From Phormidium tenue FACHB-886 (GTDB lineage: Bacteria; Cyanobacteriota; Cyanobacteriia; Elainellales; Elainellaceae): a stretch of 64,000 nt of DNA. Below the pieces are notes generated by a model that was given only the letters and a program-made list of their open reading frames with translations, did no database searches and was not told where the DNA came from. Position numbers and translations under genes: made by a program. This document shows, piece by piece, positions 53,065 through 56,067 of this stretch (positions within the stretch are counted from its first letter, which is position 1; the number at the start of each line of letters is the position of its first letter). Location of the stretch: positions 310,001-374,000 of the forward strand of contig NZ_JACXWX010000003.1 of NCBI RefSeq assembly GCF_014764505.1, in the 5' to 3' direction.

Positions 53065-53277
53065 ATGAGAAGCGGTGTTGTGACAGAAGAGCAAGGCAGA
53101 CAAAATATTTATGCGATCGAGCCGCAGGTTTACGTAGAAGCGGATTCTCGTGTTGGCTTCACGCCCTATGCTGAAATGCTGAACGGTCGGCTAGCCATGA
53201 TCGGCTTTGTGTCGATGCTGATCCTGGAAGCTGTGACAGGTCACGGACTGCTTAGCCTGTTCAGCAGCCTGGGCTAA
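53065..53277 (+). CDS. High-light-inducible chlorophyll-binding protein (HLIP)
   Basis: A 70-residue one-helix protein of the chlorophyll a/b-binding superfamily. The membrane helix carries the signature YAEMLNGRLAMIGFVSMLILEAVTGHG, with Glu, Asn and Arg as chlorophyll ligands and the salt bridge residues. HLIPs bind chlorophyll and carotenoids and protect photosystem assembly in high light. The ATG has an AAGGAG site five to six bases upstream. A promoter with TTTACA words lies upstream but does not match HLR1 well enough to claim RpaB control. A strong terminator follows. Confidence 0.93.
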   Translation: MRSGVVTEEQGRQNIYAIEPQVYVEADSRVGFTPYAEMLNGRLAMIGFVSMLILEAVTGHGLLSLFSSLG

Positions 53278-53321: not shown

Positions 53322-53346
53322 GTCCCCCGTGCAAAGCACGGGGGAC
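53322..53346. terminator. Bidirectional terminator between hli and luxR-type gene
   Basis: A perfect 11-bp stem (53322-53332 with 53336-53346) with loop AAA is followed by TTTT on the plus strand. It lies between the stops of the HLIP gene and the convergent LuxR-type gene. Confidence 0.88.
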
Positions 53347-53359
53347 TTTTGTTAACTCC

Positions 53360-53986
53360 TCACAGTAGTATTAATCCCTGTCTTGCTCCGATCGTCACTG
53401 CTTCCGTGCGGCTTGACACATTCAGCTTGCTAAAAATAGATCCGACATGGAATTTGACGGTATGTTCGGAGATGTTGAGGCGTTTGGCGATCGTCTTGTT
53501 GCCCAGTCCTTCTGCCAGCATTTCTAGCACTTCAACCTCGCGGCGGCTAAGGGGCTGTGCGGCTGGCAAAGGGCGAGGGACGATCGGCTGGCTGGGCAGC
53601 AGTGCCTCTATCAAATCCGGGTGCAGTACCGTTAAGCCTGCCGCTGCCGCTTCGATCGCCGCCGTAATCTCAGCTGCCGTTGCCGTTTGTGGCAGAATTC
53701 CCCGGATTGGGGAACGCACTACTTCATTGAGCCAAGCGCTGGAGAATTCCTCCACTAGCAGCACAACCCCCACCTGGGAGGCTTCGACCAGCGAATCCTC
53801 CGCCAGCGGCGCTTCCTCAGACAAGTCCCACTCCAGCAGCACAATATCGGGGTGTAGCGCTGTGAGCTGCTCTGTCGTAAGATTCGCCGTTGTGCCAACC
53901 ACCATTAGCCCGGCGCTAGCAGAGACTAGCGCTGCTAGCCCTGCCTGCATCACCATAGAACTCGCGACCACCAGGACTCGGATCAC
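53360..53986 (-). CDS. LuxR/NarL-type regulator with degenerate receiver
   Basis: A 208-residue two-domain regulator. Residues 1-120 have the length and strand pattern of a response-regulator receiver, but the acidic pocket (usually DD) reads ASS (8-10) and the phosphorylation Asp is Glu52 in DIVLLEWDL, so normal phosphorelay control is unlikely. Residues 142-205 are an intact LuxR helix-turn-helix (PLSRREVEVLEMLAEGLGNKTIAKRLNISEHTVKFHVGSIFSKLNVSSRTEAV). The start overlaps the stop of the protease gene upstream by four bases. A permanently active or ligand- or protein-controlled regulator is the best reading, perhaps governed by the co-encoded proteases. Confidence 0.88.
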   Translation of the reverse strand: MIRVLVVASSMVMQAGLAALVSASAGLMVVGTTANLTTEQLTALHPDIVLLEWDLSEEAPLAEDSLVEASQVGVVLLVEEFSSAWLNEVVRSPIRGILPQTATAAEITAAIEAAAAGLTVLHPDLIEALLPSQPIVPRPLPAAQPLSRREVEVLEMLAEGLGNKTIAKRLNISEHTVKFHVGSIFSKLNVSSRTEAVTIGARQGLILL

Positions 53987-54810
53987 GCCGCCTCCTGCGT
54001 TGCATCATCTGTAGGCAGAATCACTTCGCAGGTTAATTTGCGGTCGCCTCGCAGAACGGTGATTTGGAGCGGTTCGTTGAGCGATCTGCCGTCCAGAATG
54101 TCGCTGAGAGCATAGGGAGACGTGAACGTTTGCCCATCTAGCTCCGTAATCACGTCGCCCACCAACAGCGGAATGCCAGCCGCAACGCTATCGATCGCCA
54201 CCTCTAGCACCAGGAAGCCCAGACGACGGCGGAGCCGCACAGGTTGAAGCGTGACGCCAAGCGTGGGGCGGTTGGACTGCAAAAAGCGCTGGACGATGCG
54301 ACTAGGAATGGCAAAGCCCAACCCGTTGACGATCATACTGTTGATGCCAACAACCTCTCCCTGAGCGTTTGCCAGCAACCCGCCAGAATTGCCAGGAGCC
54401 AAGCGAATGTCAGCTTGAATCCAGCGAGGATCGGGTGTGGCGCACAGAATACCGATCGTCAGCGCTCCTACCGTGCCCAGTGGATTGCCCATCGCAAATA
54501 GCCACTCCCCCACCCGCAGGCGATCGGCATCGCCCACGGTTGCTGCAGGTAGCCCGCTGGTGCTGACCTGCAAGACTGCCAAGTCTCGACTGACATCGCG
54601 CCGTACCACTTGTGCCGGTAGGGTTCGTCCATCCCACAAATCAACGACCGCTTCTCGTCTAGAGAGGACATGCGCATTGGTGACAATTAGCCCATCGGGC
54701 TGCCAGATCACCCCTGATCCAACGCCCGATCGCTCCCCGCGAATCTGCACCGTACTTTGCCGCAGGCGATCGGCAAGGGCAACTAAATCTGCTGAAAGCT
54801 GATCGATCAT
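53983..54810 (-). CDS. HtrA/Deg-type serine protease (S1C) with PDZ domain, first copy
   Basis: A 275-residue trypsin-like protease with catalytic His47 (VTNAHVLS), Asp76 (SRDLAVL) and Ser142 (APGNSGGLL), all intact. A PDZ domain occupies about residues 180-265 (LGFLVLEVAIDSVAAGIPLLVGDVITELDGQTF). There is no signal peptide or membrane segment, unlike HhoA, HhoB and HtrA of Synechocystis, so it appears cytoplasmic. It is the second gene of a three-gene operon with four-base overlaps on each side. Substrate is unknown. Confidence 0.9.
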   Translation of the reverse strand: MIDQLSADLVALADRLRQSTVQIRGERSGVGSGVIWQPDGLIVTNAHVLSRREAVVDLWDGRTLPAQVVRRDVSRDLAVLQVSTSGLPAATVGDADRLRVGEWLFAMGNPLGTVGALTIGILCATPDPRWIQADIRLAPGNSGGLLANAQGEVVGINSMIVNGLGFAIPSRIVQRFLQSNRPTLGVTLQPVRLRRRLGFLVLEVAIDSVAAGIPLLVGDVITELDGQTFTSPYALSDILDGRSLNEPLQITVLRGDRKLTCEVILPTDDATQEAA

Positions 54811-55730
54811 GACTTGCCCTCCTGCTGAGGACGCTCACCCACAGTCACGGTTACTTCTGTGAGGGCACCGCCCCGAATCAGCTTAGCAACGAGGGGACTA
54901 TCCACCCGCTCGGGATCGAGCATCCGATGTACAGCCGCAATATCGGCAGTGGGCTGCTCATCAAGCGCGATCAGAATATCGCCAATCAAAATACCAGCGC
55001 GATCGGCAGGGCTACCGGCTTGCACACTCACCACGATCACCCCGCCGTCGTTTGAGAGCTGCAGCGATGCTTTCAGGCTGTCGGGGAGCTGCACTGGCTG
55101 CATGCCCACACCCAAGTAACCGCGTGCAATCCGTCCCCGGTTCACCAGTTGATCAACCATCCGATTCACCGTAGCAGCAGGCAGCGTTAGCGCCATATGG
55201 CGATAGCCAGACGTGTTGATGCCAATCGCTTGCCCTTGAGGTGTCACCAACGCACCCCCCGAAAAGCCTGGATACAGTGACAGATCCGGACGAATCAACT
55301 GGTCAATTTGTCCTCCGTGCCACGTCCGCCAAGCCCCGCCCAAGGCGCTGATCACGCCCATGCTGGCCGCCACGCCGCTGTCTGCCGATCGCGCTACCGC
55401 CAGCACCCACTGCCCCACTTTCAGCGCAGCGGTATCTGCCAGTTCTGCAGTCGGCAAATCGCCTTCCTCTAGCCGCAGCACCGCCAGATCGGTGCCGCTA
55501 TCGCGCCCTACTAGTGTCGCCGCCACCGTTCGCTCATCGGGCAGCGTCACCGTCAGGTCTTCCTCACGTTTCACAGCGTGATCAGCAGTCACAATAATGC
55601 CCGATCGCCAATGTACCCCGCTTGAAGAAAAGCGCCGCCGTCCATTCACTGCCACCGTAAATTGTCCGGCTTTCTCCACGGCAGTTGTAAATTCGTTTGA
55701 AATTGCCAAAAGGCTGGCTCCATCACTCAT
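54807..55730 (-). CDS. HtrA/Deg-type serine protease (S1C) with PDZ domain, second copy
   Basis: A 307-residue relative of the neighbouring protease, probably from an old duplication. The triad is His51 (VTADHAVK), Asp81 (GTDLAVL) and Ser157 (YPGFSGGAL; the usual GNSGG is GFSGG here). The PDZ domain (residues about 200-295: YLGVGMQPVQLPDSLKASLQLSNDGGVIVVSVQAGSPADRAGILIGDILIAL) is longer than in its partner. It also lacks a signal peptide. It is the promoter-proximal gene of the operon protease-protease-LuxR regulator. Replacement of Asn by Phe before Gly-Ser may change substrate binding. Confidence 0.9.
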   Translation of the reverse strand: MSDGASLLAISNEFTTAVEKAGQFTVAVNGRRRFSSSGVHWRSGIIVTADHAVKREEDLTVTLPDERTVAATLVGRDSGTDLAVLRLEEGDLPTAELADTAALKVGQWVLAVARSADSGVAASMGVISALGGAWRTWHGGQIDQLIRPDLSLYPGFSGGALVTPQGQAIGINTSGYRHMALTLPAATVNRMVDQLVNRGRIARGYLGVGMQPVQLPDSLKASLQLSNDGGVIVVSVQAGSPADRAGILIGDILIALDEQPTADIAAVHRMLDPERVDSPLVAKLIRGGALTEVTVTVGERPQQEGKS

Positions 55731-56067
55731 AGCTGTCTCTCCAGAAATGAAGGCGGCAGTCTGCTGAGACTAGGTCCATTCGCTACCTGCTGCCGCCTAC
55801 TCTCAGGATGCAAAATCGATCGGCTTTATCACATCAGAGAAATGGGGAGAATAGACCTAGAAAAATGGGCAGGAGTGCCGCCTAAACGCAATTTCTCTAG
55901 GAAATCCTTACCTTGGCAGAAGTTCAATCCGAGTCGCTGCTCGGAATTGGGTAAAATGTTCGAGGCTAGCGCTTTAAAGTGTTGTCTTTTACACTATTTT
56001 TTGAATTATTCGTGGCGATCGCCTGTTAGCCCCTTCGCTGTCCTTGCCAAAATTCCGTTGACTTCCT
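55731..56067. other. Divergent intergenic region with a GC-rich stem
   Basis: The 337-bp gap separates the protease operon from the divergent aroF-type gene. AGGCGGCAG (55751-55759) pairs with CTGCCGCCT (55790-55798), just upstream of the protease start, and may form a leader hairpin. GTGTTGTC...ACAC followed by TTTTTT near 55978-56001 resembles a weak terminator-like hairpin before the DAHP synthase gene. No gene is seen. Confidence 0.4.

Follow-up and report, generated by a model that had tools for sequence, protein, structure and literature searches.

How could a transcription regulator be switched when its receiver domain lacks the phosphorylation pocket, and what would two HtrA-like proteins without an export signal be doing next to it? 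This question is raised by a three-gene operon, denoted here A-B-R after the order of its genes, on the minus strand of the contig NZ_JACXWX010000003.1 from the 8.9-Mb genome of the cyanobacterium Phormidium tenue FACHB-886; the window is the whole 64,000-nt stretch of this contig that was analyzed, and all coordinates are positions in it. Comparative analysis suggests that A-B-R might be a self-contained, self-regulating module of cytoplasmic protein quality control, a reading to which we assign a probability of about 0.4. This reading, a homeostatic loop, is favored because R is not found without A in the sampled genomes, the full upstream element is seen only before A, and the scaffold of A outlasts its catalytic residues. 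The genes are as follows.

54807–55730, minus strand: gene A, 307 amino acids (aa), HtrA-like protein with Trypsin_2 and PDZ domains, cytoplasmic by hydropathy, triad His51/Asp81/Ser157 intact in this species
53983–54810, minus strand: gene B, 275 aa, HtrA-like protease with Trypsin_2 and PDZ domains, cytoplasmic by hydropathy, triad His47/Asp76/Ser142
53360–53986, minus strand: gene R, 208 aa, NarL/LuxR-type regulator, pseudo-receiver (Ala8, Ser9, Glu52, Val78, Gln100) followed by a GerE helix-turn-helix (HTH) domain

An earlier note on this DNA (hereinafter, the original prediction) described three genes with 4-base overlaps, in agreement with the coordinates (A/B and B/R, where the GTG start of R overlaps the stop of B), and two proteases with full triads and PDZ domains but no export signal, which is also what we find in the window. 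Both A and B score above the Pfam cut-offs for Trypsin_2 and PDZ_2, the domain composition of the HtrA/DegP (Do) family, and for A, the predicted structure, with a mean predicted local distance difference test (pLDDT) score of 91.4, is nearest to DegP, DegS, DegQ, MucD and HhoA. Both proteins remain below the curated NCBIfam cut-offs, with 193.5 (A) and 181.6 (B) versus 416.2 bits for TIGR02037, and 153.4 (A) and 167.7 (B) versus 450 bits for NF041521. By hydropathy, neither contains an export signal or a membrane anchor (maximum 18-residue Kyte-Doolittle mean within the first 60 residues, 0.65 for A and 0.69 for B), and among 23 A and 13 B orthologues, the N-terminal maximum does not exceed 1.47; several other HtrA proteins of the same genome start with hydrophobic stretches, as judged by eye.

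Conservation of the A-R pair and the tandem element upstream of A

Of 98 relatives, 24 encode homologs of A (E ≤ 2.5e-82), and the same 24 encode R (E ≤ 6.9e-28). The two genes are neighbors in 23 genomes; in the 24th, they are split over two contig ends, which is compatible with adjacency. Across the phylum (386 genomes, two of them shared with the 98 relatives), A (E < 1e-100) and R (E < 1e-50) again occur in the same nine genomes, adjacent by coordinates in all nine; the A-profile threshold yielded 11 genomes, the two weaker matches (G071 and G402, 1e-64 to 1e-66) being longer HtrA proteins without an adjacent R. Among the named A loci, i.e., the best 80 of 262 relatives found in the genome collection, which come mainly from cyanobacteria, R is located downstream of A in 75, with a B-like sequence in between in 66. 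Of the five named loci without R, three stop at a contig end, and the other two belong to Fischerella muscicola and Anabaena azotica. Given the recurrence of the pair on one contig in 23 of the 24 relatives and in 75 of the 80 named loci, the A-R linkage is more than chance. Thus, the module is not strain-specific, and by these homology searches, A and R are a linked, co-occurring pair in the sampled genomes, with B as a frequent third member; the original prediction would have fallen had the trio been confined to this strain, and the trio extends well beyond it. The A-R pair is also found on plasmids of Paraburkholderia and Bradyrhizobium (L230, L231), and plasmid1 of Nostoc carneum (L165) carries a copy of the module or of the A-R pair; because of these plasmid copies, the module may move between hosts. 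In a metagenome-assembled genome (MAG) labelled Acetothermia, R is followed by a third gene with a weaker match to A (L108:7472-8401). The counts omit the incomplete L075, the partial R of L083 and L084, the R of L177 and sequences identical over the last 120 residues; L085 and L086 are excluded from the gene sets.

The region upstream of A contains a tandem element with the consensus CCTAGCCATTTTTCTAGG-N4/5-TTCTCCCCATTTTTCTGATG, mostly 93–167 bp ahead of the assumed A start and located at 55832–55873 in the window, where the following features are recognizable.

55856–55873, minus strand: operator-like site 1, CCTGCCCATTTTTCTAGG
55832–55851, minus strand: operator-like site 2, TTCTCCCCATTTCTCTGATG, 4 bp past site 1
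55805–55810, minus strand: -10-like hexamer CATCCT (consensus CAtnnT), 21 nt past site 2, conserved, with a putative promoter role
55737–55742, minus strand: Shine-Dalgarno-like GGAGAG ahead of A, read from the sequence

With a weight matrix derived from 36 upstream regions (a few genomes are included twice under two ids), 88 of 90 upstreams score higher than each of their 100 shuffled versions. A matrix built from 19 Nostocales genera only is passed by 41 of 43 non-Nostocales upstreams, including those of the acidobacterial MAGs L140, L144 and L175. A strict pattern matches five of the 386 phylum genomes, all of them among the nine that encode the module, the remaining four being missed. Each match is immediately ahead of A, and the reversed control of this pattern has no matches in the 386 genomes. 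In 16 module genomes, full tandem sites, with up to three mismatches allowed in the second half, number 17, and each precedes A, one of them belonging to a broken second copy of A; 11 additional single half-sites, without a second site, are located elsewhere in these genomes. The broken second copy, in Nostoc flagelliforme (L288, genome G756), is apparently frameshifted and retains an almost perfect tandem element. A wider regulon was considered and rejected: the first half-site (at most two mismatches) has 17 matches in the genome of P. tenue and 17 in the reversed control, and among the half-site matches, inspected by eye, the tandem arrangement is found at the A promoter only.

No -35 box is seen ahead of the -10-like hexamer, and a generic promoter scan detects nothing on the minus strand of the operon. 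Because the CAtnnT hexamer follows site 2 by 21 nt, site 2 would lie over the -35 region, in the position of an activator. An RNA leader was rejected as the explanation of the element: no Rfam match is found up to E 1, and changes in one dyad arm of site 1 are not balanced by changes in the other (60 rows, some genomes represented twice under two ids), so that a DNA operator is more likely.

The phosphorylation pocket of R and the catalytic triad of A

In Pfam, GerE is the only family above the cut-off for R; no receiver model is reported for the window R up to E 0.1, and Response_reg is matched by 4 of 21 R orthologues. The predicted structure (mean pLDDT 88.8) comprises a complete receiver fold and an HTH, with ChrA, VraR, LiaR and DesR as the nearest structures, i.e., the architecture of the NarL/FixJ family, receiver fold plus LuxR/GerE HTH. 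The canonical NarL/FixJ residues (the acidic pair, the phospho-Asp, Thr/Ser and Lys) are missing from the window R, which has Ala8-Ser9 in place of the acidic pair and Glu52, Val78 and Gln100 at the phospho-Asp, Thr and Lys positions. Among 27 NarL-type paralogues from the same genome, used as a control, the acidic pair is DD or ED in 26 (the 27th lacks the region), the phospho-Asp position is occupied by Asp in 24 (the other three are misaligned there), and position 100 is Lys in all 27. Among the R orthologues, a complete acidic pair is found in 0 of 84, with one residue kept in 10; 46 have Asp and 22 have Glu at position 52, and Lys100 is kept in 3. The original prediction that R lacks the acidic pocket thus extends to the family as a whole; the claim that it also lacks the phospho-Asp is correct for the window R (Glu52) but not as a family trait. 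Judging from these alignments, R is unable to form a canonical phosphorylation site, and with a receiver fold that lacks the phosphotransfer residues it belongs with the pseudo-receivers. In Nostoc sp. JL34 (L177), the reading frame of R is split in two, and the dead A may thus be accompanied there by a broken R.

If R were an ordinary response regulator that receives its phosphate from a distant kinase, this would be compatible with the Asp52 of 46 orthologues and with the sensor kinases or other receivers that are encoded within 5 kb in 18 of 81 loci (22 open reading frames). However, the residues of the acidic pocket never occur together, Lys100 is nearly always replaced, the window R has Glu52, and the nearby kinases and receivers vary in location and strand and represent no single linked family, so that this explanation appears highly improbable. 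No histidine kinase is linked within the operon, which supports the earlier notion of a module that has no kinase of its own and whose receiver is non-canonical.

The His-Asp-Ser triad of A is intact in 26 of 93 non-identical orthologues, the window A included, and broken in 67; His is kept in 36, Ser in 31 and Asp in 91. Nostocales A proteins have Glu in place of His in 48 of 48 cases and Ala in place of Ser in 46 of 48. A tree of A built with the triad columns left out implies at least nine changes of the triad label, three of which are forced by well-supported branches, with 37 of the 90 inner branches left open. In B, the triad is kept in 70 of 72 proteins, i.e., in all complete copies, the exceptions being L116, where only a remnant is left, and L144, which is truncated by the end of its contig. 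Many full-length B proteins terminate in -AA or -EAA (the 3' end of the window B is at 53983–53994), a tail reminiscent of ssrA-like degrons; the 4-bp overlap with R may partly impose these ends.

The median dN/dS values in Nostocales are 0.138 for A, 0.205 for B and 0.166 for R (the pairs are not independent). By this measure, the predicted dead A of Nostocales is under stronger purifying selection than the active B and is not decaying. Alignment entropy is 0.50 for the PDZ carboxylate loop, compared with 1.22 for the whole protease domain and 1.21 for the whole PDZ domain; within Nostocales, it is 0.53 for the dead protease domain versus 0.65 for PDZ. Given that the dead protease domain is conserved at least as well as PDZ, the whole scaffold of A rather than PDZ alone seems to be constrained. 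As far as these comparisons go, the catalytic residues of A are dispensable and the rest of the protein, including PDZ, is strongly conserved.

These patterns bear on the original prediction of a proteolysis-controlled module. In such a module, A and/or B would cleave or degrade either R itself or one of its inhibitors, with the protease activity setting the R level. The full triads of the window A and B fit this scheme, as does the tight coupling between B and R (among the 62 named loci that contain both genes, 57 have an ATGA or GTGA tetramer at the stop of B). However, the triad is broken in most A proteins, and 11 of the 93 loci lack B and have a broken-triad A immediately ahead of R (an intact A is found in this arrangement in six). 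Because these 11 loci encode no predicted active operon protease, proteolysis by operon products cannot be the general signal, and the prediction does not hold as a general rule, although an HtrA encoded elsewhere in B-less genomes could still act on R. Overall, control by proteolysis appears improbable for the family; it may operate in P. tenue itself, where A and B look active.

Alternatively, A and B might form a mixed HtrA oligomer, with A as the regulatory, PDZ-bearing subunit and B as the catalytic one, similarly to MamO and MamE, in which case R would simply be their transcription factor. MamO activates MamE-dependent proteolysis without catalysis (PMC4794232, as described in the accessible portion of that article), and the pairing of an often-dead HtrA with an always-intact one recurs with two different catalytic partners. 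The second partner comes from a survey of Acidobacteriota, in which 30 loci were examined, from 94 matching genomes of 297, and an R-like HTH gene was found beside an A-like gene in seven of the 30 loci listed. In four of these (L236, L238, L243 and L249), the A triad is broken (L243 keeps Ser), the open frame of the regulator is short, with the receiver cut to about half in L236 and L249, and the third neighbor is a different HtrA with an intact triad. By the predicted triads, this is a second case of a division of labor between dead and intact HtrA proteins. In L234, L236, L238, L243 and L249, soluble HtrA genes flank a LuxR-type gene in tandem or in opposite orientation. The mixed oligomer is nevertheless hard to reconcile with the 17 of 93 A loci that lack B and retain R, and with the absence of PDZ from B in 9 of 70 complete copies, and we consider it unlikely, albeit less so than control by proteolysis.

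The reduced receivers bear on another possibility, namely, a plain autoregulated protease operon in which R itself senses a ligand, redox state or its own dimerization via the pseudo-receiver, and A and B are the output and never touch R. The operator-like tandem before A alone agrees with this scheme, and responses to ligands or redox are known for pseudo-receiver regulators (PMC12632262, accessible text). However, R orthologues were not found without A in the sampled genomes (24 of 24 and 9 of 9), A is kept more strictly than the active B in Nostocales, and the receiver is shortened in the four acidobacterial loci and in Bradyrhizobium sp. Ash2021 (broken A triad, R of only 125 aa) while A stays, a poor fit for a receiver that is the sole sensor. 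The shrinking of the receiver beside a retained A argues against a role for phosphorylation as well. We regard the autoregulated operon as a serious but doubtful alternative. The competing explanations are not all mutually exclusive.

A possible titration loop and the surroundings of the operon

Under the quality-control reading that we prefer, R would bind the tandem element, at a location that overlaps or adjoins the -35 region, and would activate, rather than repress, the A-B-R operon and nothing else. A would be a client sensor with a PDZ domain and would hold bound R in an inactive state, this domain or the empty active-site groove accommodating either damaged proteins or R. Damaged cytoplasmic proteins, the presumed signal, would compete for A, such that R is freed and the operon is induced; B, or an HtrA encoded elsewhere in the genome, would degrade the clients, and the A molecules that become free would silence R again, a titration loop like that of heat-shock chaperones. 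Binding, rather than phosphorylation, would transmit the signal, and cleavage need not be involved. A and R might further be viewed as a two-pseudoenzyme signaling pair, in which an HtrA-like pseudoprotease stands in for the sensor kinase and a pseudo-receiver for the phospho-switch. This would amount to a cytoplasmic 'two-component system' that works by pure protein binding, drives its own promoter only, and is represented in cyanobacteria, Acidobacteriota and other phyla; we put this version forward tentatively.

Several observations weigh against the quality-control loop. The principal objection comes from Fischerella muscicola (L156), which retains A and a perfect element without a linked or otherwise detectable R, the best R-profile match in this genome (1.3e-44) being far below the orthologues; another factor may read the element there, or the loss of R may be recent. 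Anabaena azotica (L174) encodes R elsewhere in the genome, not linked to A, and in the Pyrinomonadaceae genome of L144, one of the contig-end cases, where the contig ends inside B, there is no match to R at E 1e-25. The element is not detected by either matrix in 2 of the 90 upstreams, those of Gemmatimonas and Eremiobacterota. It is not established on the plasmid loci of Pseudomonadota, the scores for Paraburkholderia and Bradyrhizobium being reached by 4 and 41 of 200 shuffles, respectively, or in most of the further acidobacterial loci (seven upstreams of six loci), where the score is reached by 1 (L235), 15, 22, 32, 41, 48 and 139 of 200 shuffles. PDZ is not kept better than the protease domain, so that the function of the predicted dead A need not be that of PDZ alone. 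The C-terminus of R, GLILL, was considered as a special PDZ ligand and rejected, given that many of the 27 paralogues have tails of similar length; that the R tail is no longer than those of the paralogues leaves PDZ binding of R without special support. Where A has kept its triad, as in the window and in 25 other orthologues, cleavage may play a part. Finally, the binding of R to the operator and the A-R contact are deduced from comparisons of sequences.

Around the operon, no neighbor family of at least 90 aa other than A, B and R recurs in more than 10 of 81 loci (2 genera). In the window, R is convergent with a 70-aa open reading frame (53065–53277, plus strand) that matches Chloroa_b-bind (E 2.9e-5) and probably encodes a high-light-inducible (HLIP) protein. 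This gene was considered as a conserved neighboring target and rejected: it represents no recurrent neighbor, and no HLIP-like sequence is present in the 106 other loci searched. The two genes are separated by a possible shared terminator.

53322–53346, no strand assigned: GC-rich hairpin and T tract, in the gap separating R from the HLIP-like gene

An antisense open frame of 221 codons (53349–54014, plus strand) spans nearly all of R and is longer than R; in the list of open reading frames, nothing marks it as a gene.

Relation to known systems

Among the closest described systems are the cyanobacterial Deg/HtrA proteases HhoA, HhoB and HtrA, which share the Trypsin_2 plus PDZ fold with A and B, Synechocystis HhoA being among the nearest solved structures of A. 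Unlike these, A and B lack an N-terminal hydrophobic segment, and they score 153 and 168 bits versus the NCBIfam cut-off of 450. A dead HtrA alone is not new: according to the portion of PMC4877387 available to us, Degs of two Nostocales, Nostoc punctiforme and Anabaena variabilis, are proteolytically inactive, cluster with 'unusual' degs of Gloeobacter, and might be neo-functionalized. These are probably members of the A family; the main text of that article does not contain the term 'response regulator', and its accessible part mentions no operon partner or operator for them. MamO and MamE present a similar arrangement, a degenerate HtrA that works without catalysis beside an active one, with repeated loss of the triad. 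A MamO-type degenerate triad is found in 67 of the 93 A orthologues, the window A not being among them; however, MamO and MamE function in the magnetosome, with metal binding, and no linked transcription factor is mentioned in the accessible portion of the source (PMC4794232).

In the CssRS-HtrA system of Bacillus subtilis, misfolded proteins likewise act on HtrA genes through a linked regulator, and a title cited in PMC12826053 refers to negative autoregulation. As far as the accessible text of PMC12826053 goes, CssRS is a two-component system of cell-envelope stress, whereas A-B-R is predicted to be cytoplasmic, with no kinase in the operon; the sensor kinase and the exported HtrA that characterize CssRS-HtrA are both absent from A-B-R. 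Pseudo-receiver (atypical) response regulators share with R a receiver fold without the phosphorylation residues. The available text on them describes no protease partner ('protease' occurs 0 times in the main text) and calls the way they are switched on and off a mystery (PMC12632262). The operon, the regulator and the element are not described in the titles or abstract openings listed from the literature searched, which mostly excluded subscription journals, or in the text consulted of the articles cited above.

The module may represent a mode of intracellular sensing of damaged proteins that is as yet undescribed. It would be to the cytoplasm what the HtrA stress systems are to the envelope, and would exemplify an HtrA scaffold that stays under purifying selection after the loss of the triad. 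Combining an unchanging protein partner with one candidate promoter and the recurrent loss of protease catalysis, the module would also provide a natural experiment on the switching of pseudo-receivers.

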